From assembly GCA_027596075.1 (NCBI GenBank), contig JADGJC010000138.1, positions 7,733 through 71,732 on the forward strand: DNA of 64,000 bases. Reading direction: 5' to 3'. The stretch is from Rhizophlyctis rosea (taxonomy: Eukaryota > Chytridiomycota > Chytridiomycetes > Rhizophlyctidales > Rhizophlyctidaceae). A model generated the notes under the pieces. The model saw only the letters and a list, made by a program, of their open reading frames with translations, ran no database searches and was not told the origin of the DNA. How positions within the stretch are numbered: position 1 is the first letter of the stretch; the number at the start of each line of letters is the position of its first letter. A program made the translations under genes and the position numbers. Positions 2,692-64,000 of the stretch are shown here, piece by piece.

Positions 2692-3196
2692 GGCCGTGTA
2701 GCGTCTTTCGGTATGTGTGTGAGATAGTCCCTCAAAAAATACTTATACGCAAAAACAAATGAGGATCCAAATGATCTCAGCGCCCTGCGCGCAAGAGATA
2801 GTGCAATTGAAGAAGCAAAGTCAAGAGCAGGAGGCCAATGTGTAAATTCAATATGAAAATATTGGGAGAAGTGATCAACACGGGTTGCTGCCAAAAGTCA
2901 AAGCTGATGGATGCGCAGTTGAGCAGCCGCCCCAACGCGATAGGATGCCAACATGCGATGATAACACCTATCATGCGCATACAGTATGCGCAGGATATGG
3001 TACGTCCGATCGAGTGGATGAGGCACAGGTCGGGCCAAGGATGACAAGGTGTGCAAACAAGAATCAGGGTCGTGGCTTGGGTGCAGGCGGAGTGAGACAA
3101 CCGCGTGGCTGGGGGAGGCACTGCCCAACTGACATCATTGCTGATTGATGACATTCCAAGTGACAGAGATACCACTTCTTCTGAACTTTCCGCTCC

Positions 3197-3290
3197 ATCA
3201 AGAACGCTTGATATTACAATTGCTTGGCCATATCCCTTCCGGCGTGAGCCCGGTTGACCTGGAGCAATTGTAATATCAAGAACGGTTGAT
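3197..3290 (+). mobile_element. 64-bp MITE-like relative of the introner repeat, with TIRs and TSD
   Basis: The core element is 3212-3275. Its ends are perfect 11-bp inverted repeats, TATTACAATTG and CAATTGTAATA. Directly outside are TCAAGAACGCTTGA (3198-3211) and TCAAGAACGGTTGA (3276-3289), a 14-bp direct repeat with one mismatch, as expected for a target-site duplication. The first ~55 bp match the other two copies (4341-4434 and 10994-11087) except at the variable dinucleotide after GGTTGA. The 3' end differs, replacing the intron-like branch site and pyrimidine tract. It lies between genes and encodes nothing. Confidence 0.7.
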
Positions 3291-3661
3291 CATTAGCAAA
3301 GTCACGACTGTGTTGGGAGTATTGAAGGTTTGCCATATACATCCCATATTACTAAACATATACCCTCCAACTCAGTCATTACGATGATCAACTGGAAAAA
3401 TCGCGTCCTTCACTTCATGCATCCTCCCTAATTTTTTTTTTTTCCTTAATGAAAATCCGTTTACACGTTCCCACCAACCGGTCGCAAATGCATCTTATCT
3501 CGAGTTTGGAAGCTACCCGATACGTTGGATGTGAGCAGTGTACCATGGACCACCCCTTTCTGACGGTGACAGTGCGGTGACAGGGCTGCCAGCTGGAAAT
3601 TGGTGGCACAGTCATGGAGAGAATCATATCAATCACGCACCGTGTTTGACCAGCACGGTAA

Positions 3662-3760
3662 CTCCATCTGGCTGAGTGGTCTGGCGCCGCAACAAGCGTG
3701 TGTCGCAATGCGGCCATCGAGGTCGCAGGTTCGGATCCGGGCCCAGCCCCACTTTTTTTT
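3662..3760 (+). ncRNA. tRNA-like Pol III unit or tRNA pseudogene
   Basis: An A-box-like TGGCTGAGTGG (3669-3679) is followed 49 bp later by a B-box-like GGTTCGGATCC (3728-3738) and then by a run of eight T (3753-3760), a typical Pol III terminator. Between them GCCGCA...TGCGGC can pair. I could not form a proper acceptor stem or an intact T-stem, and the would-be anticodon loop lacks U33. A degenerate tRNA or tRNA-derived SINE head is more likely than a working tRNA. Confidence 0.3.
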
Positions 3761-4001
3761 CTTTTGTTCATGTCAACAGGCAGCAGATCCCTCCACCGTC
3801 AGAGCCCATAGCCCACCAACACATAACTAACTTCTGGGCGCTAGAAATGGTGGTGTGCCCAGGCAATTCGAGGTTATTGCTGCTGTAGTACCGTTGCGAC
3901 CTCACATCGGCTTTGTCTTTTAATTGGTGCAGAGCTACAGGAAAGATCAAGGATCTCCACCAGGGACAACATGTTCAACAGTGAACTCAGTGAAATCGCT
4001 T

Positions 4002-4211
4002 TCAATCATTGCACCTGATGGCGACGCTGATTGATGAACCGAGGAGGGGTTTGCTGCAACGGGCTCCGTGGGCTATGGCACCTACATAGTTGAGGTAAAT
4101 CCAAGCGAGGCGGACATACACCCACCAGAGTGTAAGGAAGCTTTGTATAGCGGTCAAGGGTCCCGTCGCTGGACTAGGTTTCTGTTGGGGAGTCGTACTT
4201 GGAGTCGACAT
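4002..4211 (-). CDS. Possible small membrane protein (69 aa), unrecognised
   Basis: ATG-initiated ORF starting MSTPSTTPQQKPSPATGP, then a hydrophobic, aromatic-rich stretch (LTLWWVYVRLAWIYLNYVG) that could be one membrane helix. No family recognised. A splice donor is possible near the end of the helix, so the C-terminus is uncertain. It sits in a repeat-rich interval with no other gene, and it could be a chance ORF. Confidence 0.22.
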   Translation of the reverse strand: MSTPSTTPQQKPSPATGPLTAIQSFLTLWWVYVRLAWIYLNYVGAIAHGARCSKPLLGSSISVAIRCND

Positions 4212-4340
4212 CCTTTGATATTAGGAATTTCCGTTATCCAGCATCATGAGATCTAATTTTTGTACACAGTCAAATGTCTGAGCGTTGAACTTTGCAAAGT
4301 CGAAACTCGACCAAGAATCTGTGGCGGTGTGTGACGATGT

Positions 4341-4434
4341 TATTACAATTGCTTGGCCATATCCCTTCCGGCGTGAGCCCGGTTGACTTGGAGCATTTAA
4401 GTACAAAAGACTGACTATTGGTCCTTCCCTCCCA
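4341..4434 (+). repeat. Introner-like repeat, intergenic copy
   Basis: A 94-bp unit from TATTACAATTG to CTTCCCTCCCA, differing at four positions by eye from the copy that forms a zinc-transporter intron. It keeps a CTGAC branch-like site and the pyrimidine tract, but the base after the terminal A is T, so no AG acceptor is formed here. The T before the element means that the donor would be the weak GTTATT. No coding exon was found on either side, so this copy is probably not spliced. Confidence 0.75.
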
Positions 4435-4574
4435 TCGCAAAATCCTCGACACACTATCTAAACGATTCACAAACGCCTATCCTCTAATCCCAGACCGTCC
4501 GACCCATGATTTACTCGTAGTAGCGCGTCTTTTGAATGTGACTTGTATGCTTGAGATACTTGTAACGGACGGTA

Positions 4575-4665
4575 TCCACGATGCACGAGCGTCACACATG
4601 TGTGACGCGTCTTGGGCAGCCCTCCATTGCAAAACCCAGTGCAAAATGACCACATGCATCGTGGA
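4575..4665. repeat. Nested inverted repeat around a 20-bp perfect palindrome
   Basis: Outer arms TCCACGATGCA (4575-4585) and TGCATCGTGGA (4655-4665) are perfect reverse complements. Just inside the left arm is the perfect palindrome GCGTCACACATGTGTGACGC (4589-4608). It could be a small non-autonomous element or a structured site; no coding sequence is visible here. Confidence 0.6.
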
Positions 4666-4886
4666 CAAGTTTCGGAGGAAGGACAAGGCGTCCATCACGT
4701 TCCGGCATTTGCCTTTCACGTCTCCTCATCTTCCAACTTCCCATCGCGAGAGCAAAGAAATTGATTTTATTTTTCCAGCGTCTTTGCACGTCAGTTGGGG
4801 TGGTGCACTGTTCGCAGAAAATCTCATATTTACACAAAGTTAAGGTCCAACCACCCATACCCAAATACCCCATACCAAACAACAAA

Positions 4887-5397
4887 ATGCCCCTATCCAC
4901 CCGCCTAACCCTCCGCGCCTCCGCCCCACCCGCCCCCCCCCCCCCCAACCACCAACCCCCCAACCCCCCCCGCACACCCTTGCCACTCCTTCACATTCAT
5001 CTCCACAACCCGCCCAACATCCCCCCAAACCCCCTCCCCCTCCTTCCGCGTCCTCCGCGTCAAAAACTCCTCCGGCTCCCTAATCTACGACATTGACGAA
5101 AACTCTGGAACAGACTTCTCAGACGCGTCCGTGTCGTCGTCGTCAAGAGGGTCGTCGCGGAAATTCAGTAGTGAGGCGGCGAGGCAGAGGAGTATCAGTA
5201 GGGGACGGAGGCATAGTCAGGGGGGTGGGGGGTCGATTAAGAGGAGTACTACTGTGAGGAGGACGAGGACTTGTAGGAAGGGGACGTTTAGTTGTAACGA
5301 GTTGGATTGTGAGATTTTCCCGGTTGAGGAGGATGGGGGGGAGGTGAAGCAGGGTGGGGAGGGTGAGGTGCCAGTACCCATGGTGGTTGATGCTTGA
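4887..5397 (+). CDS. Basic Ser/Arg-rich protein, frame broken at a 14-C tract
   Basis: The ATG at 4887 (MPLSTRLTLRASAPPAPPPP) runs into a 14-base C run (4933-4946). In the assembled sequence that frame ends soon after in a meaningless Pro/Leu/His stretch. A one-base shift at the run joins the start to the frame that has coding character from about 5044 (FRVLRVKNSSGSLIYDIDEN) through a Ser/Arg-rich segment (SRGSSRKFSSEAARQRSIS) and CRKGTFSCNELDCEIFPVEE to TGA at 5395-5397. Either the homopolymer length is mis-called or the gene is truly frameshifted. No domain recognised; the Arg/Ser composition suggests a disordered, possibly phosphorylated protein. Confidence 0.45.
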
Positions 5398-9969: not shown

Positions 9970-12034
9970 TTATCCAAGCCGACACATATTTGGATTACAA
10001 TGCGCCGACGCAATCCCATTCACACTCCCCTCACTAGCACTATCCTCATCCACGAAACCCTCGCCCTCCAATTGCACCGTGGCATGGTGAATGCCGTACC
10101 GTGAACACACAAGCTCCTGTGCTGCTGCTAAAATGCGATGATAGTCCTGGACGATGAGTTCTGCAGAGGTGGTAGGGTCAACGCGGTGGATTGTGATATG
10201 AACTGATAAGCTGGGTTTGCCGATGGTTAGGTTCCAGATGTGGAGGTCGTGGACGTCTCGGACGCCGGGGATGCAGTGGAGGTCTTTTTCGACGGCGTGG
10301 GGGTCGATGTCTGAGGGTGTTGCTGTATTTGCGAGTGAAGTGGGTTAGGAACATTCCCTCCGCCGAAGTCCCTTCTGCAATTCCCAGCACTAAGCCCGCA
10401 CAGAGAACGCGACACAGGGATGCCGATCACCCACCTTCCATCAACACCGTCAAACTGTTATACATCAACCTAATTGTCGTGGCCAGCACGAATACGGAAA
10501 AGATGAAGGTGCAAATGGGGTCTACAATGGTCAAATCTGGCCTGATCCAGATCGTTATAGCGGCAATCAACACGCCAACGGAACTAAGCAAATCTCCAAG
10601 GACATGAATCGCAGCGGATGTGATGTTGATATTTTGGTGCTTTCGCTTCAATGAGATGAATGTATGTGAGACCTTTGATTACAAGCCTTTGTCGGCCTGA
10701 ACAAAACACATACCTTTTTGGGCATCTTGTTTCTCTGCCGATCAGACCCCGCCAAACCCGCCTCAATCAGGTCGTCTATGGACCGTCCAACATGTTCATC
10801 CTCCTCCTCATGATGATGTTCATGATCATGATCGTCGCCATGATGGTGGTCATGGTCGTGATCGTGGTCATGATCGTCTTTATGACTATGCGAATGCGAA
10901 TGTCCATGTAAATGGCTGCTATGATCATGCCCTCCATGCAAGGTGAGGCCCAAAACGATATTCACAACAACGCCTATTGCCGCCGTCCCAGCCTGGGAGG
11001 GAAGGACCAATAGTTAGTCTCTTGTACTTAAATGCTCCAGATCAACCGGGCTCACGCCGGAAGGGATATGGCCAAGCAATTGTAATACCATTATCCGCCC
11101 ATCAATTGGCGTTGGTCTTCGAACTCTTTCTACTGCTTCCCATAGCAGGAATGCGGTAAGGATCCAAATGAGGAATACAGAGAGGATAGCGCCAATGATC
11201 TGCAATAAATATTAGCGATGCCGCTGGAGTTGAAGATTGCTTGCAATGGTCCTCATACCTCGGCACGATAGAATCCATAACTATGACCTGTTGCGTGTTG
11301 CGTCGATAAGTAAGTAGTCTGAACATACCCGTCCAAATCTCAACATGAATCAAGAGTGCGTCCACGTACGTTTCGTTGCAGGTTGTTGTGAAAGATATAG
11401 TGCTGCCAATGAGATTGCGAACCCGGCAATATCTGCACACGCGAGGTAAGTCTGAGCCCATTGATCATTTTGCGATATGGTATAGCCCAGCTTACCGGAA
11501 AGCAGATGAAAACTATCACTCAAAATCGCCAGGGATCCTGGAAAATGGCACGATGAATAGGTGGATCTGCCGCTTGTCATCTAGCCACAATACCTGATGC
11601 TTACCACTGATAATACCAGCAACTAGTTCCAGAATGAAGAATGCAAAGCACAAACTAGTAGCGATGATAAGCTTGCGCTTATCACGCGCTGCACCCTCGT
11701 TCGCTTCCGCTCCCAATTCGGGACAAGCAAACCCGCTTCCCCGACTACCTCCATTACCCTCTTGATGTGAGCCACTCGTGCTTCCGTAGGAGGTAGCCGG
11801 GGAAGTGCCTTTGTGGTCTTGCACAGAGGCTTGGACCGATGAGGGAGCGCCTACATATGTGTCGCCGGAGATGGCCCGACCATTGTCGGTTTCATCATCC
11901 ACGTCTGTGGAGATATTTGTGTTTCGCGTGAAGGGTGCTAGGAGAGTTTGTGTTGCTAGGGTATCTATTGTTGACAAACGACGTGACCGTCCGGATGAGG
12001 GTGTTGTGGAAAGGAGGGGGGCGTGTTCGGACAT
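9970..12034 (-). CDS. Cation diffusion facilitator, ZRC1/COT1-like zinc transporter
   Basis: Multi-exon gene starting MSEHAPLLSTTPSSGRSRRL. A Ser-rich cytosolic N-terminus leads to helix I (LIIATSLCFAFFILELVAGI), helix II with zinc-site Asp/His (LAILSDSFHLLS), DIAGFAISLAALYLSQ, and IIGAILSVFLIWILTAFLLW. A very long His/Asp loop follows (HDHDHDHDHHHGDDHDHEHH), then helix V with the HxxxD site (SAAIHVLGDLLSSVG) and helix VI. The last exon encodes the CDF cytosolic domain, recognised by VHDLHIWNLTIGKPSLSVHI. Known members export zinc from the cytosol into the vacuole in exchange for protons; the His-rich loop is typical of that group. The intron at 10993-11088 is exactly one copy of the introner-like repeat; removing it joins DGRIM to AGTAAIGVVVNIV. 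Confidence 0.9.
10993..11088 (-). mobile_element. Introner-like element forming a complete intron
   Basis: On the minus strand the intron is G + element (10994-11087, 94 bp) + G: the element begins TATTACAATTG and ends CTTCCCTCCCA. It supplies the T of the GT donor, a consensus branch site GACTAAC, the pyrimidine tract and the A of the AG acceptor. The flanking G on each side completes the splice sites. Splicing regenerates ATAATG-GCTGGG in frame and restores a conserved CDF segment. It shares ~96% identity with 4341-4434 and its first half with 3212-3266. Confidence 0.8.
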
Positions 12035-40824: not shown

Positions 40825-42043
40825 TGGACTAACTTTATGTTTGTAAACGAGAGATATGCCAAGACAAGTCAGGGCGGTGCGTCGTGTGGCAACTTCCTGA
40901 GTGACGTGAAGGAGTTCTAATATATCGGTTGGTGCCTAGCAGGTAGTCTATGCAAGAGAGAAAAGGCTGAGAAAATGGCAAGAAAGTGGAGAACAAAATG
41001 GTGGTTGAAAATCAATTTCTGACTTTCAAGTCTTGGGTGCCGTGGCCGTGTGCTGTCACTGCTGTGCCCTGTCATCCGCAAAACGCCACTTAGGAGCAAA
41101 TACTGCCATCCGGCTACATTGGTTGGGTAGTGGTTGGGCTACCAACCTGTCATAAACCCTATGCACGTTGGATTGAGCAACCGTTGGTTATACCGATATC
41201 GGGTAGACTCAAATGGCCCGAACTGATGCCCCTTGACTACCCACAGTACCGCTCAATGTGCACCCAACCACATGGCAAAAAATAAAGGAAAAGCACCATC
41301 TCGTTGTTGGTATGTAATACTTGTAATGCCATGCGTAGCATTTTTTTGTGTTTGGAATCTGCGGGGTTCGAACCAAGGAGATCGTATTCAAATTGTTAAA
41401 TCACCTACCACTCAGCCACACAAGCGCGTTTGGATTGTTGCAAGTTCACCTCGCGTCACCTATGATCTTATAAGCCACCCCAACTGTCGTCCAATTGGCT
41501 GCATTATGGTGGGACAGTCACAAAGCCCTCCGAGAGGGTGGCACAGGAGCGAACCATATTGGTTGCCTCATCGGGACCCAATCTGAGGCCACCTGGACTT
41601 GCCCAAACCGTTGGTCAATCCTGGGTGGACTCATTTTAGCTGCCGTATCGGCGCACTTTGGAAGCGAACCCCTGTGCCACCAACTGGTGACTTCGCCACC
41701 ACCTAACGCCCAAGGGGCAGAAGAATGTTTCATGGATGCCGTCCCCTGTGATCTCGCCAGGGCACAGCAGCCGAATGTTCGGACTCTGTGACACGTGCAT
41801 TTGCGTCACCAAAAATGTGGGAATCGGGATTGACTTGGGTCTGACTTGGCACTGCCCTGGCAAGGGCCCATGCAGGCAGTCCGTCCATCTGCCTAAAACT
41901 TTCCACGAACAGCTCGAACAGCCTCAACCCATCCTCAACTTTCCAACTTGTTACGTGTGTCAAATCTATTTACATAAAACCATACATACAAAAGATAGAA
42001 GCCGACATATTTGTAGAAGGAATATTGCTTGTTGCGTTCAACA
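40825..42043. other. Long divergent intergenic stretch
   Basis: 1.2 kb between the AN1 gene (-) and the Bro1 gene (+). Only short ORFs. It holds a degenerate tRNA-like stretch on the minus strand (A-box-like 41408-41418, B-box-like GGTTCGAACC 41365-41374, no terminator) and an 11-bp inverted pair, GGTGGCACAGG (41537-41547) and CCTGTGCCACC (41671-41681). No gene recognised. Confidence 0.45.
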
Positions 42044-50067: not shown

Positions 50068-53000
50068 TTATATCCCGTCACCACGCCGCAAAGTGCTACC
50101 GTTCCTATCCCGCGTAGATGTGACAACCTCTCGGGAGCCTCTCCTCGCTCCTGTCCCATCTCTCAAAGACCCATTGCTGCTTCTTGTCAGGACCTCTCTC
50201 ACCGGCGTGATATTCGTAAAAGTCGGTGATCGCGATATAGGAACGTCCAACCGCGGTGCGGAGCCATGTACTACAGGTGAAGCAGCTCGGTTGTTAAGCA
50301 ACGTCCCCTGAGAATTATATGTTTGGTTTGTATTTGCCGGGCTAACGGATCGCCATCCTTCGCCTGCTGGTGGTGCGGATGCTGGTGCGGGAGGTGGATA
50401 AGCGGATAGTGATGTCCCTGTGCCGTATAATCCCAAGCCGGGATCTGAAGCCGCTTGCCCATTCCACGGGGTTGGATCGACCCAACCTCGGGGGACTGGT
50501 TGGAGGGGTATTGGTTGCGGTGGGCCATCGACGCGGAGTTCATGGACTTTAGGCGCCTTCACTCTTCGTTGCGGGCAGAATATGCAGCGAAGGAGGGCGA
50601 CGATGATGCAGATGAGGATGCAGCCGAGGAGAACGCCGATGGAGATGGCGGCGGGGAGGTTCCGTCTCATCCAGTCCAAGAGGTTTGCAACTGGTGGACA
50701 CATGGGTTAATATTGCTATTTCCCCTGAATTGTGGAGCAACATCGTATACTTACAGAAATTGGACCCATCGCAGGTGCCTTGATTGCAGCGCCCACCGAT
50801 ACCACAAGGCGTTCCATCTGAAAACAATGTGAGATCAAGGGCAAAGATTGAACTTCCAAGAAGCAAAGACAATCGATGCGTACCTTGGAAATATCCGTTT
50901 AACATCAAACACATCCCAGAGGTATCCTGACAGAGCAACTGACACTCTGAATCATGTCCAGGACAGACGGATGTGGTATTGATGCCACCAGCAGAATTCT
51001 TGCATTGCAAGTCACTATTTTGAAAACAAGTGAGATAACATAAATCATTACCAAACAGAATTCAAAAACCTACCGACTGGTACACAAGCCAGCAGCACAC
51101 TGCGCGTTCACAGTTTGGTTGCCAGATTTGGTCTGACAATCGGTCCCGTCTGCAAGGAAGCCATCGGTCGGACAGGTGGCGTTCTTCCCATCGCAATACT
51201 GGAAATCAAACTTTTAGTGAATACTTCGCTCTTCTCTAAATCAAAATCCGCATCATCCTACCTCCGGAATGTCACAGTATCCAGTAGAAGGTCTGCACAA
51301 TGTACCATTGGACTGCAGAAAGTGCGTGACAGCTTTAGCTCAAGTGCATTCAGAGTCGGTGAAAACTACATTTCCTTACCTTAAGAGAACATCCCGTGCA
51401 ACAATCATCGTTCTTATCCGAACAAGTAGCTCCATTTTTGAACGTGCAGTTAGAATTGCAACAAGGGTCATTCTGGCATTCATCCGAAGTTCCACAATCG
51501 CACTGCTCATTCCCTTCTCGGACACCATTGCCACAAATGCCTTGTGTGATAGTGCGCAAAGCGCCAGGCGCTGAACAAAGATGCAAATTGTTAGTCCAAT
51601 ATCGCTTTGGTTGCATAGGTCATCTGTACTCACGTTTCAGACAAGTACCCAGTTTTCCAACCGTATTGCAGATGTCGTTGACACTGCATGGCGAGAACTT
51701 GCCCGTTGAAGCATTATCGGTGGGATGCATGACTTTTCAAATGAATAAATGGTAAGTAAGTTGTGCACGGTAAAGGGCAGCTATACCCAGAAACACCTAC
51801 GATATTGTCCTTGGCAATCACATGCGGTACCACTGCCACATGCACAACACCCGCAACTATCCTTGGAACCACCAGACGCTATGCACGAACATGAGCTGGC
51901 AGTGCAATCGTGGACCGCTCCAAAATCTATTTGTCCAAATGTGGTCAGACACCGCATTGATATGAAAACTCGATCCCCCATTAAAACTTACTGTGTCCAA
52001 TTTCGTGCGCCACAACTTTCCATTCAGTCGGCACGATGGATGAAACTCCCGTTCCTGATACATACTGTGTACTGCTGCCACCTCCTTGCGTCTGCACTGA
52101 CTGCGCACACAGCATTGCTGTCGACGAGGACGATCAAGATTAGAATGAGCCGCAATTTCATCGAGCTGGGGGGAAGACTTACACAACCACGCGACACCCA
52201 CGGACGCTCCCGTGCTGCACTTTGTCATCAAATGCCACAACCCAGCATCGTCCGCCTCCTTCTTTCCCCGCCACCGACTGAAATCGCTCAACCGAGCATT
52301 GATGGAATATCCGTCCGAACATTCGCGGTTCCACTGCATGTTGTTTGCCGTGTCGGTAGGTGTGCAAGACGGTTGCAAGTTCACTTTGATCAAGCCTAGC
52401 GAGATGTTGAATGTGGATTCGTATACTTGGCTGGCTTGATTCCAATTGCTGAGAATGGACTGTAACGCGTTGTCCGTTCCACCCTTGGCGGTAATGTAGG
52501 TGCAATCTGCAGCGGCGGCCTAGAGGATAGCATGAGCTTACGAGAATGTTTGCGTTAAACTACATTGATTCAACTCACCATGAACAAAACACGCCGCGAT
52601 GAGGGACAACCATTACTCTGTCGCCTCCGAAGATGGTTGAGTCCAAGCGATGCATGATATGCGGCTATCGCTTCACTCCCTGCTCCATGATAATAGCCGC
52701 ACGATCCCACGCTACCACCCTCCTGTCGCTTCTTCAACGACGCTGTTCCAATATGGGCCGCCGGTGACATGTCCGGCGTCAGCCCCAAACGTTCAAAGTA
52801 ATCTATAGTAGACTCGGGTGTCAAAAGCTCATCTTCGTCTTTGAAGATCATCAATCGAGAATTGCGCAGCGAGCTAGGTCTGGAGAATGGTGATCCCGGC
52901 TCAACATCGTACTGCATATAGGAGCCAGCGATCAATTAGTTGATTGTATTTCCAGACAGTGTCCAGCCATAGGCTTACCGCTCGCTTGGCCCGTTTGTAG

Positions 53001-53661
53001 TCGTTGACTTCGCGAATGTGATACATTCCATGAGGCGTTGTGAAACTTCCTTCAAAGGATGCATCAGGACCAAACAAACTATTGCATGGGTAATGTTTAG
53101 CAATCCATCACATCACGCAAACCACGGAACATATACACTCACTGCGCGTTGTGAAATAGAATCCGTGCCCAGCCAGCTTGCCAAACCCGCCCGGTTCTTC
53201 CCGTCACAATCACATCTCCCTTGTACGCGTTTGCAATGATCTGCCTGGACGTAGAACCTCCGTCTCCATGTATTTCCACCACGGCATCGGTATGTAGAAG
53301 CTCGTCATTTGGTGTAAGATGCAGGTCGAAGGTTTGATTGAATGCCTAGGCAGTTGACATTTCGAGGTAAGCACTTCAAGCGCAACAATAGTAAGATTCA
53401 ATATGTACCCTGAAGGACAACCGAAGGCTATCATCATAGCCCGGCCTCACTAGTGTGTTCCCCAGGAAATCATAGAAGCGAACTGGTGATCGTGGTGTTG
53501 CTGGTATTTGTGCTGGAGGACCATATAAAGTTAGCCCCTATATGGAAAAAATTCCCTCGTCATTCAGGCATACCTGATACGCATACACAAAGGGCAATTA
53601 TTTGTAAACAAACAATCCAGGCATTGGCGAAAAGCCGGCGAGTGGTCGGAAGGAACACCAT
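50068..53661 (-). CDS. ADAM-type metalloprotease with disintegrin domain
   Basis: Exon 1 is a signal peptide, MVFLPTTRRLFANAWIVCLQ followed by IIALCVCVS. The prodomain (QIPATPRSPVRFYDFLGNTL, FNQTFDLHLTPNDELLHTDA, GRTGRVWQAGWARILFHNA) ends near a KKRQE cluster. The catalytic domain begins AAADCTYITAKGG and has the reprolysin zinc site HEIGHNFGAVHDC followed by a Met near IMHPT (the Met-turn). A disintegrin domain (NGVREGNEQCDCGTSDECQN, CCTGCSLK), a Cys-rich region, one transmembrane helix (AISIGVLLGCILICIIVALL) and a cytosolic tail ending RDRNGSTLRRGDGI follow. Thus it is a full type I membrane sheddase. It cleaves ectodomains of surface proteins; fungal members are poorly studied. Confidence 0.9.
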
Positions 53662-54073: not shown

Positions 54074-54400
54074 TGAAGTGTGAGAAAGCTGCCCTTGAAG
54101 TCAGCCAGACCCGAGCCTGGGAAAGGAATGAGAACCGTGTAAGAACTCTGTTTGAGCACCACCTGGACAGGGCAACCGGGCAGTGTAGTGCAAGCGGGCA
54201 AATGCATTTGGGGGGCACTGCAGGCACTGCACGGTGCACACGCACGGTTACACCCGCGCCGCAGATTCATTCCGCATTTCGGTGCCACGATCCCCATATA
54301 AGGTTTGATGACACACCCAATCCCTCGAATTTTGGAACATGTCACTGAGGACCGGGGGCCTGGCATGCGCCACGCACTTACTGGTACAGGGTTCCCAGTG

Positions 54401-54472
54401 AACTCACCGATGGCTCGATCCGATTATCAGATGATATCTGGCCCACCGGCTCGAGTGAGCCATCGGTGAGTT
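54401..54472. repeat. Perfect 16-bp inverted repeat (hairpin) with 40-nt loop
   Basis: AACTCACCGATGGCTC (54401-54416) is exactly reverse-complemented at 54457-54472. It lies about 160 bp upstream of the amidase start. It could form a cruciform or be a remnant of a tiny inverted-repeat element. The GTGAG inside could be mistaken for a splice donor. Confidence 0.6.
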
Positions 54473-54634
54473 CGGTGGTACCGCTGTATGTAGAACCCGC
54501 TTGGCTTCTGGGCACTTTGTGGAACTCCAGGTTTGCATCTTTGCTAAAAAGTTAATTTTCATGTCCACATGGCTATTTGAAATGCGCATAATACTCGCAC
54601 GACTCTACGTATATCAGAAGCAAAACTCGAACCT

Positions 54635-55695: not shown

Positions 55696-56210
55696 TCCGA
55701 CCTTGATCCGCGCATGCGTTCTTTGGACCTTATTTGTAGATATTCTCTTGTATACCCGTTTCCTACAGTCAAGAAGATTATAAATTTGACCAATCAAAAT
55801 CGTTAAGACTGACATTTGTTCATATCTGACAAGGAGATGGGGAAAGTTCATCGATTTTCTTGGCTCTTGAGCTCTCCGATAGCATGATAACGAGGCAAAC
55901 AAAATCGACCTTCATAACCTCTTACCGTTTTCACCAAGATGCTGTTGAAGATATCGGTCACATACATTGAAGATCTTCAGTGGGGAGAGATTCTCTCTCT
56001 TTACTTTTCATTTCAATAGAGACAATTAGACAACCAAAATGCCAAGATAATTGATAGCAAGCATCCATTGAAAAACGGATGGATATATTCTTTTCATAAC
56101 ATTATATACAAGGGAAACAACATTGTTTTTGCAAAGGGGACACGGGCAAGGAAAGGCAAGGATATGTACTACTGACTCGAGAGGATTGGTTGGGATATAA
56201 CGGTCCTGAC
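55696..56210. other. Intergenic, convergent 3' ends
   Basis: 515 bp between the stops of the amidase (+) and H2A (-). AT-rich, no gene recognised. Confidence 0.45.
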
Positions 56211-56796
56211 TTAGTATTCTTGGCTTTGAGACCCCTTCTCGCCGGGAGCGCCCTTGCCGCCCTTGGACTTCTTGGGAAGGAGGACGGTGTGGATGTTGGG
56301 GAGGACACCGCCCTGGGCGATGGTGACGTTGCCGAGGAGCTTGTTCAATTCTTCGTCGTTGCGGATGGCGAGCTGAAGGTGGCGGGGGATGATGCGGGTC
56401 TTCTTGTTGTCACGGGCGGCGTTACCGGCCAACTCGAGAATTTCGGCGGCGAGGTATTCGAGAACGGCAGCGAGGTAGACGGGGGCGCCGGCACCGACAC
56501 GTTGAGCGTAGTTGCCCTTGCGGAGGAGACGGTGGATACGACCTATGGGAAAAGGGAGTTTCATAAGTATTGAAGAAGTAGATGGAGGGTACGAGAAGAG
56601 AAAGAAGTGACTACTAACCGACAGGGAACTGGAGACCGGCACGACCAGAGCGGGACTTGCCAGAGGGCTTGGCCTTCTCAGCACCACCAGACTTTCCTTT
56701 GCCACCTGTCAAGAAAAAAGACTCCTCATCAATAACCAGTCCTCACGATAAACAATCACCGCATCGGAAACCAAACGACAAAATCTCACCAGCCAT
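56211..56796 (-). CDS. Histone H2A (H2A.X-like end SQEY)
   Basis: Three exons. ATGGCTG (56796, donor GTGAGA) joins [20 protein letters not shown] and [10 protein letters not shown], then the exon [91 protein letters not shown]. This is a canonical core H2A with the acidic-patch residues ([22 protein letters not shown]). The tail KGSQSQEY carries SQE plus an aromatic, the site phosphorylated by ATM/ATR kinases at DNA breaks. No H2B lies divergently upstream, unlike the usual fungal H2A-H2B pair. Confidence 0.97.
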
Positions 56797-56950: not shown

Positions 56951-57843
56951 GGGGCCAGCCTCGATATCCAAACCGAATCGCGATCACGCTTGTCATTCAC
57001 GTGATTAAATCAATCCCAAAAAGGATGTTTTTGTTGACGTGGTGTGACTCCTTGAATCAATCTGAATGCGGTAATATTGATGATTCACTCTTGCCTGACA
57101 GCGTAAGCATATCTTCTGGTAAGTGGCACAGTGACTGATCTGCCGGCATCAATAGCCAAGTAGTGAAGGGTCTTGGAATTGGATGCTGTTGAAAGTAATC
57201 CCTGAGACCTTGTGTATTGAACCGCTTATTTCCCACTCTTTATGAGAATCCAAAAACAGGCCCTCGGGAACCTGAAAATTGAACGATGAAACATATCAGA
57301 ATGACTTCATTTATGGAGTGAGGATTATGCCTGTCATTATTTTGTGCAATCGCCGAACTCTTGCCAAAACTCTCAATCACGGGAAAGGGAACATCAATCA
57401 GAACCATTGCCTTGATCTAAACATACAGCAGCTGCAGAAGGATAATATACAGTCCAGGTCAAAAATAGAGAACAGGCGGCATGCAGCTTGAAGGCGATAC
57501 AAACCGCAGATATGCCATTCGGGATCTGGATCATAACGACCCATGCGCAATGACAGATGTGACATGTGAAGAATATCTCTGAAACGCCATGGAATAGCTA
57601 GACGCCCGATTCAATATCTGACCGAATCCGCATAACCACGGTGGTTTTGTTGGACAACCAACACCCACACAGATGTAATGCAGATTCTAAGTGACACACC
57701 ATGGCCAGCTTCAAAAGAGACAGGGCGTAACACCACTCCATCACAGCTAAAACCAACTCTGCCAGACTATTGCGGATGTGAAACGGGAGCAAAGGTGTCA
57801 GTATGGTTATTTAGCAGTATCAGCTGCGGGACAAGGGGATGCT

Positions 57844-57869
57844 AGACTGTACGGCTGGCTGTACAGTCT
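57844..57869. repeat. Short perfect hairpin
   Basis: AGACTGTAC, an 8-nt loop (GGCTGGCT) and GTACAGTCT. No T run follows, so it is not an evident terminator. Isolated within the gene-free stretch. Confidence 0.45.
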
Positions 57870-58794
57870 CAACAGAGGGGGAGTTTCTGGCAACTTCTTT
57901 CTTCAGCATCGGTACTAGGCCGGTCCAGCACAACTGTTACAAAGCCGACTGCGCAAATCCATCTTGGGCAGGATCAATGTGGGTGTTGGCTGCACGCCAA
58001 GTTCTGGCAGTCTTGCATAATCAATCAGATATTTAGTTCCGTCTGTACATCGCCTCAGTGTATAATCAGGGAGTTGATTGCAAGTGACTGATCAACAAGT
58101 TTGAGCATGCCTTCACGGCGTAAAGCAGATTGCCCACACGGATCCTCCACATTCGCTTTCATTGCACCGTTCATCCTGTTTCTTTGATTGATATTTTTGC
58201 AATGGATCGTTGTGAAATGCGTCAGACCTTTGCCAGATCTTCCTCCAATGGGATGTTCTCAAATTTGATGATGTCAAACCTTGGTCAATCATGTACCAGT
58301 TGCCATACATTTAACAAATCGCCCACCCATTTTCACTTTATCAGAAAGGGTCCGGAATGGAATACTAAAGGACCTGGACTATGCAGGATGAATCGAATGG
58401 TTCTGAACTGTGTAGCTCAGCCACGGTGGTCTAGTTCGCGTTTGGTTATGCTCTACTCCTGATCAAAATGTTCGGCATGGTTACAATCTGACATTTGTCG
58501 TCTTGCGATTGAGATTCAGGTCATCCTTTCATATGCGTGAAAAGGAATCGCTGGCCCACCTTCCCGGACCACGAAGGTGAAGGAATTCCTTAGCACATGA
58601 TGCAGAACATGCGCATTCATCCGATCTGGAAGAGTAAACATCTATATCTATCTAGTACGAGCGCCTGGCACTATACATACATAATTACTTGCTACAGACG
58701 TTCTGGTAGCTAAAGCACCAACAACGTTCGCACATGTGCATCCAAGCTTAGGGTATAACCTATCCTCTATATCAACTACAAAAAACTATAACGC

Positions 58795-63174: not shown

Positions 63175-64000
63175 ATGAACTCCCCAAAATTGAGCAGCGA
63201 GCAGTCGTCAACACCCAACCCTTTACTCACCAGCTTGCTTGACGTTGCGAACCAAGTCCAAGCACTTCAGAAACAACTATCAACATCACAGCAACTCTTG
63301 TCCGTCAAAGAAGATGAAGCAACCCACCTACAGTCGGAATGCGCGGCCTTGAAACTTTCGCTAGAAAAACAAAACCAACTCCACGAAAAGAACGAAGCGG
63401 AGTTGCGCTCTAAGTTGAATGACGTCGCAACCCAAGTGCAATCTCTTCAAAATCAACTATCAACATCAAAGCAGCTTTTGTCCGCCAAAGAAGATGAAGC
63501 AGCTCAACTACATGGTCGGCTAGAGGATTCGATGGCACTGGAAGGGGTGTTGCAGGGCCAGATCAATGAATTGAGGGTAGAGGCGGGAAGCACCAAAGAC
63601 GCAGCCCGTGCGGAGCTTCTCAAGAAAGATAAGGAACTGTGCGGACTTCGGCAGGAGCTTGTGTTGACGAAAGACCAGTACGCCGAGCAGAGATCAGCTG
63701 CGGAATTCCATAGCACGCGAGCAGATGCCCTTGAGTTGGAGGGAAAAGCATTGAACGATCGGCTCCTTCAATTACATCAACAAATGGAAGAATCGAAAGC
63801 AGACAGGGTTACCCTGCAATCTCAGTTCGAGTCATTGATTGAAGAGAAAGTTGCCGCGGAGACCCAAGCGAAGGCACTGTCAGGAATGATTGTAAGTCCC
63901 GTGAGGCAGGCATCTGCAGTTTGCGATTACTGGGATTTTTTTTGACTGATTTCCCTCCAGATCCAGCTTGAACAAGAAGTCACCAATCTTGTTCGGGAGA
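63175..64000 (+). CDS. Coiled-coil protein, 5' part
   Basis: ATG at 63175 begins MNSPKLSSEQSSTPNPLLTS; the gene runs off the right edge. From residue ~22 the sequence is an almost unbroken coiled coil (heptads in LLDVANQVQALQKQLSTSQQ, LEKQNQLHEKNEAELRSKLN, KDKELCGLRQELVLTKDQYA). An intron follows LSGM (donor GTAAGT near 63892; acceptor CTCCAG just before ATCCAGCTTGAACAAGAAG, giving IQLEQEVTNLVRE). A ~31-residue block is repeated 61 residues later (ANQVQALQKQLSTSQQLLSV / ATQVQSLQNQLSTSKQLLSA, each followed by KEDEA). It may be a golgin, myosin-tail or centrosomal-type protein; too little is seen to decide. Confidence 0.75.

Follow-up and report, generated by a model that had tools for sequence, protein, structure and literature searches.

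The annotated fifth intron of a CDF zinc-transporter gene in the chytrid Rhizophlyctis rosea was found to consist of a discrete 94-nt unit with a single G at each end, and this unit occurs three times within 7.9 kb, once as the intron and twice in apparently intergenic DNA. It is suggested, with what we take to be nearly an even chance, that the unit was inserted locally during break repair, with one copy entering an exon of the CDF gene and being kept there as a spliceable sequence. All positions refer to the window, the whole stretch of 64,000 nucleotides analysed (contig JADGJC010000138.1, here C44). The features concerned are listed in the table.

The CDF gene and its predicted intron

The CDF gene model with an ATG|GCT junction gives a 505-aa protein in which 505 of 505 residues are identical to NCBI HDV00_001827 (Rhizophlyctis rosea), and the NCBI model therefore has the same intron borders (11088 and 10993) as those proposed in the first-pass annotation. 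Direct reading also agreed with that annotation on the composition of the 96-nt intron, on the presence of a branch site, GACTAAC, within the unit (read at 11019-11013) and on the restoration of the CDF frame when the intron is removed. A restored frame is no sign of recency, being true of any correctly placed intron. Read unspliced, the frame hits a TAA within the letters of the branch site, so that some splicing is required for a whole transporter, and the intron is presumably spliced in vivo. Judged by its letters, the donor GTATTA appears weak, as it lacks the G at +5 which is present in all six other introns of the gene. Weaker splice sites are described for novel introns in Drosophila in one study (PMC2809761). 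The fold of the intron copy was no better than that of shuffled sequences, and the same was true of the 4341 copy (z-scores of -0.5 and 0.7, respectively). No known structured RNA was matched in Rfam up to E = 10 in the interval 10980-11100, and an intronic RNA gene or a 5S-like origin of the unit was rejected for want of an Rfam match.

An internal donor, GTGAGC at 11055, lies in frame with no stop and has a +5 G like the six other introns. Were it used, the real intron would be the 63-nt GTGAGC...AG, with the first 33 nt of the insertion acting as exon and adding the residues VLQLLGHIPSG, and the perfect fit between unit and intron would then be partly a matter of annotation choice. This is considered rather unlikely, as the NCBI model takes GTATTA and as residues are neither added nor missing at the site in any of 10 other CDF proteins aligned (taken from 119 others listed), which favours the annotated borders. 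Splice-motif enrichment in the genome sample amounted to noise and was uninformative on the donor choice. The 63-nt intron is compatible with any of the origins discussed below, and its likelihood does not compete with theirs.

The second R. rosea protein in the alignment, P0008 (HK097_006899), has an uninterrupted M-A at the site and jumps past intron 6 seven residues later. An intron at the site would thus need an exon of 21 nt in this protein, which hints, as far as the gene model can be followed, at a strain with no intron there. Both R. rosea proteins have A directly after the site, where the other nine have F (eight) or C (one); the change to A probably predates the split of the two strains, and it does not date the intron. 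The CDF paralogues are too diverged at the site, with that on contig C166 reading through in one frame, that on C430 being interrupted by a stop slightly upstream, and the others being uninformative on intron position. The HK097 and HDV00 CDF proteins are merely 79% identical in the alignment, suggesting that the two "R. rosea" genomes may belong to different species.

Table. Positions in the window of the CDF gene, its predicted intron 5 and the copies of the 94-nt unit
Feature	Position	Strand	Remarks
CDF (PF01545/PF16916) zinc-transporter gene	9970..12034	-	8 exons; = HDV00_001827
Intron 5 of the CDF gene, annotated (96 nt, phase 0)	10993..11088	-	G + 94-nt unit + G
94-nt unit, intron copy	10994..11087	-	read from sequence
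Donor GTATTA of intron 5	11083..11088	-	no G at +5
Internal alternative donor GTGAGC in intron 5	11050..11055	-	use would give a 63-nt intron and 11 more residues in frame
Branch-site-like GACTAAC in intron 5	11013..11019	-	read from sequence
94-nt unit, full copy in apparently intergenic DNA	4341..4434	+	4 mismatches in 94; borders T/T; no clear target duplication
Truncated third copy	3212..3275	+	unit nt 1-55, then exact complement of unit nt 1-9; apparently intergenic
Perfect 17-bp inverted repeat of the 3212 copy	3207-3223/3264-3280	+	read from sequence
Left 16-bp direct repeat	3197..3212	+	base 3212 common to repeat and copy; 15/16 match
Right 16-bp direct repeat	3275..3290	+	base 3275 common to repeat and copy; 15/16 match

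Copies of the unit and their surroundings

The full copy at 4341-4434, which had been put at about 96% identity, aligns with the intron copy over unit nt 1-94 with mismatches at nt 47, 48, 67 and 73 (4 in 94, or 95.7% identity). All four differences are transitions, and the copy reads GACTGAC in place of the GACTAAC of the intron. The copy from 3212 was absent from the first-pass annotation. The left end is common to all three copies (with one base of doubt at 3212) and both ends are common to two, whereas the bordering bases differ, being G/G at the intron, T/T at 4341 and A or T at 3212. Common ends between differing borders indicate movement or insertion of the unit in one discrete piece, and the best reading of the intron's two Gs is that they belong to the host, as originally proposed. 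Possible duplication footprints are at most GG at the intron, at most one T at 4341 and 16 bp (15 of 16 alike) at 3212. Within the first 55 nt, one difference from the 3212 copy is present in the intron copy and one in the 4341 copy (nt 47 and 48), a star-like pattern. In their present form, therefore, neither of these two can have served unaltered as the source of its counterpart or of the 3212 copy. A CDF pseudogene fragment around the 4341 copy was considered and rejected, as a BLAST search with 60-bp flanks extended just 3 nt past the unit.

The unit had been described as a dispersed repeat and as a candidate introner expected in many, mostly intronic, copies. A search of 44.1 Mb in 634 contigs, in which masked stretches (including all of C44:1-7732, adjoining the window) read as N and counts are lower bounds, instead gave three places, one of them intronic and all in this neighbourhood. 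Three were found with the 96-nt intron as query, three with the 94-nt copy and three with a 21-nt core, and two with a 26-nt part of the 3' end, the last two being patterns run over the whole genome with up to 3 mismatches allowed. No fourth copy was detected by these DNA queries or patterns. Long queries were less sensitive than direct ones, as a 20-kb query missed the copies on C44 itself. No exact 23-nt match to the unit was present in viral and prokaryote contigs. The two relatives of the intron copy stand 6.6 and 7.7 kb away from it, and the chance of two further copies both falling within 7.9 kb of the first is ~1.3e-7.

The introner interpretation is thereby divided. The observation of an intron that is itself a repeat copy with exact shared ends was retained, and the family was not (three copies in 44.1 Mb). 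According to passages of an introner survey, a family requires at least four similar introns and copy numbers run from 5 to over 2,000 (PMC9860276), and hundreds of near-identical copies are reported for introner-like elements in passages of a second paper (PMC4457414). Since the rule asks for four or more similar introns, in genes of a single genome that are not paralogous, the present set, with one intron among three copies, does not count as a family, and one of the usual size, with tens or hundreds of copies, is most unlikely. As with the introners of these passages (PMC9860276, PMC4457414), the intron corresponds to a repeat unit whose ends are exact, its splice-site bases come partly from the insertion site and protein length is unchanged. 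In contrast to them, there is a single intron with two apparently intergenic siblings, all in 7.9 kb. Unit ends coincide with splice sites at the annotated (predicted) intron only, and the sole intron copy is in sense orientation by definition (n = 1). Neither chytrids nor Rhizophlyctis are mentioned in the main text of the survey (PMC9860276).

The 4341 and 3212 copies are likely to lie outside genes, judging from the open reading frames around them. The stretch that holds both (2743-4870) has short mechanical ORFs only, and none of seven ORFs (four in this stretch and three neighbouring) reached the cut-off of a Pfam family, with one match, in a neighbouring ORF, at E 0.07 and 11.7 bits (cut-off 28.9). 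No related protein was found for an ORF of 142 aa with its start within the 4341 copy, not even an annotated R. rosea one of similar length. A gene at either copy was ruled against by the absent Pfam families and by this homologue-free ORF; as Pfam matches are likewise absent from the two long ORFs next to the stretch, the intergenic setting is likely but indirectly deduced. Between the two copies sits a stretch of 163 bp (3603-3765) which has tRNA-like A and B boxes, as seen by eye, followed by a T run, and which is 80% alike to C609:46739-46901. It was recognised neither by ARAGORN (bacterial settings) nor by Rfam, and is possibly a pol III gene or a tRNA-derived repeat.

Other repeats were noted in the window and beyond. 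A hairpin repeat of ~104 bp at 54385-54488, with the ends TACAGGG...CTGTA in the window copy, is 96-98% alike on contigs C378, C113 and C256 and 78% alike on C527, with varying end letters; it looks MITE-like and might, at a guess, be of mariner-type origin. The intervals 41072-41739, 52844-53363, 56165-56706 and 57602-58041 have matches of 71-93% on other contigs and are larger dispersed repeats or gene families, and a C-rich stretch at 4925-5085 has weak matches on C57 (69%) and C71 (84%). A repeat scan of a sample of 281,000 bases (16,115 of them N) returned 28 rows, four of them in the window; one pair, in L042, was judged by eye to look coding and the others are close-spaced repeats. At 63240-63519 there are two 100-bp copies, 83% alike, with starts 180 bp apart, and a motif of ~55 bp is present in three copies ~400-600 bp apart in L029 (7932-9045, contig C5).

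The truncated copy at 3212 and its hairpin

In the 3212 copy, unit nt 1-55 are followed by ATTGTAATA, the exact complement of unit nt 1-9, and the copy as a whole is a hairpin (fold z-score of -4.4). It is bordered twice by ATCAAGAACG(C/G)TTGAT, and a scan of the sample, with 264,885 readable bases, gave no second pair of direct repeats like this one at the same offset. For a strand of unit nt 1-55, folding predicts that the 3' GCA pairs with the TGC at nt 10-12 and leaves nt 1-9 as a 5' overhang; filling this overhang reproduces the observed letters of the copy. With the 3212 letters the predicted pair probabilities of the 3' GCA are 0.52-0.84 under RNA parameters (0.84 for two of the three pairs) and 0.51-0.54 under DNA parameters, so that the pairing would be favoured with the former and about even with the latter. 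Several other truncation points of the unit likewise pair their 3' end in predicted folds, and the fold therefore permits self-priming and does not single it out.

The fill-in would be the mark of a self-primed ("snap-back") strand that was copied to its own 5' end. As it reaches that end, the strand would have started at unit nt 1 (or at nt 2, one base being shared with the flank). The 16-bp direct repeats on either side indicate that the hairpin was most likely inserted at this place, and probably at a staggered break.

A 17-bp inverted repeat with a flanking direct repeat is also what a MITE would show. Unlike MITEs, the full-length copies have neither inverted repeats nor a constant duplication, and the terminal inverted repeats with constant target duplication over several copies that mark a DNA transposon are replaced here by footprints of GG, T and 16 bp. 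A low-copy introner or unrecognised transposon which hops locally, with three insertions so far or with others in masked or unassembled DNA, is distinctly improbable in our assessment. It would account for the discrete ends, for the host-derived Gs and for the direct repeats and inverted-repeat hairpin at one copy. The genome also contains a different short, dispersed hairpin repeat, and some of its DNA is masked, including that next to the window. Against it are the failure of DNA queries and patterns to reveal a fourth copy, the differing footprints and the lack of terminal inverted repeats in the full unit. The 16-nt end of the hairpin, moreover, was found only at 3212 and at one place on C21 with 1 mismatch, a count equal to that of the reversed control pattern.

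Origin of the intron

Under the favoured explanation, a discrete piece of ~94 nt would have been inserted at nearby sites of the chromosome as filler in local double-strand-break repair, drawn from the 4341 copy or from a sister since lost. One insertion would have fallen in a CDF exon between G and G. The piece would have brought the branch site and pyrimidine tract and borrowed the two host Gs to complete GT and AG, and it would have been retained because the spliceosome removes it and leaves the protein unchanged. A shortened single strand of the same piece would have folded back, primed itself and been filled in to its own 5' end, and the joining of this hairpin into a staggered break would have produced the copy at 3212 with its 16-bp duplication. 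Local DNA copying of a source alone would not explain the left end common to the three copies. Insertion into an exon is favoured because of the host Gs, the weak donor and the P0008 protein. Also in favour of the explanation are the close clustering of all copies found, the snap-back end and direct repeats at 3212, and the 10 aligned proteins, in which no residues are gained or lost at the site. Against it, the argument from P0008 depends on a gene model, the DNA folding of the hairpin is about even, and the copy that is not an intron has an apt branch site, a tract and the ends of a spliceable intron, all of which is easier if the intron came first. A common mechanism of break repair is also opposed by the footprints (at most the 2-bp GG at the intron and at most one T at 4341), as no footprint is shared over the three events.

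The reverse order, in which the intron came first and DNA copies of its excised RNA were captured at two breaks close by, one in full and one as a self-primed hairpin, is judged unlikely, and capture of the excised CDF intron specifically as RNA or cDNA at two breaks within 8 kb, whole and as a self-primed hairpin, somewhat less likely again. The ends of the unit are those of the annotated intron less one base each, its branch site and tract are features of introns, and excision of an intron naturally yields a molecule of the unit's size. The 3212 hairpin would be explained by self-priming of a strand whose free 5' end lay at intron nt 2, the genome encodes reverse-transcriptase domains (PF00078 matches over cut-off, 10 of 12), and nascent introns near their own gene would explain the clustering. 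However, the first G of the intron is missing from both other copies and the last G from the full one, although end bases are commonly trimmed or copied incompletely. The hint from P0008 of another strain with no intron at the site also speaks against this order, as do the single differences from the 3212 copy at nt 47 and 48, which leave neither the intron nor the 4341 copy as an unchanged source in its present form.

Among known systems, the nearest kind would appear to be intron gain in break repair, with sibling copies unusually still present. Gains of this kind, flanked by short direct repeats, are described for Daphnia and others in passages of two papers (PMC3443670, PMC4202315), with which the locus shares a single short insertion and, at one sibling copy, a direct repeat of the staggered-break type. 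It differs from the cases in those passages in that sibling inserts persist nearby, one of them as a hairpin, that the repeat at the intron is at most GG, and that repair is here deduced. Intron transposition by reverse splicing, as outlined in part of the former paper (PMC3443670), is resembled in that the ends of the copies fall one base inside the intron borders, pointing to a molecule of intron size. Unlike such transposition, no second intron with the unit was found in the genome searched, the copies lie outside recognised genes, and the other two are not set between G-T...A-G borders as a unit at another intron position would be. No earlier report of the intron or the unit was found in the open literature, and Rhizophlyctis is absent from the relevant passages of a fungal genome survey (PMC8476143).

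That survey reports, in the same passages, that in genomes without introners intron gain proceeds mostly by idiosyncratic events (PMC8476143), and a 2012 review lists, in its Table 1, five unambiguous events of gain by break repair and 14 by intron transposition (PMC3443670). The source of many gained introns is untraceable; the present one has two sibling copies nearby, one of them with a readable hairpin and duplication. A repeat that matches an intron from end to end does not by itself make an introner family, and the locus serves as a warning in this respect. If the intron were captured after excision, the locus would record, in nature, the return of spliced-intron RNA to the genome beside its own gene, and a like piece landing in an exon would create a new intron. 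The CDF locus is a small natural experiment in which a spliceable sequence moves as a discrete piece.
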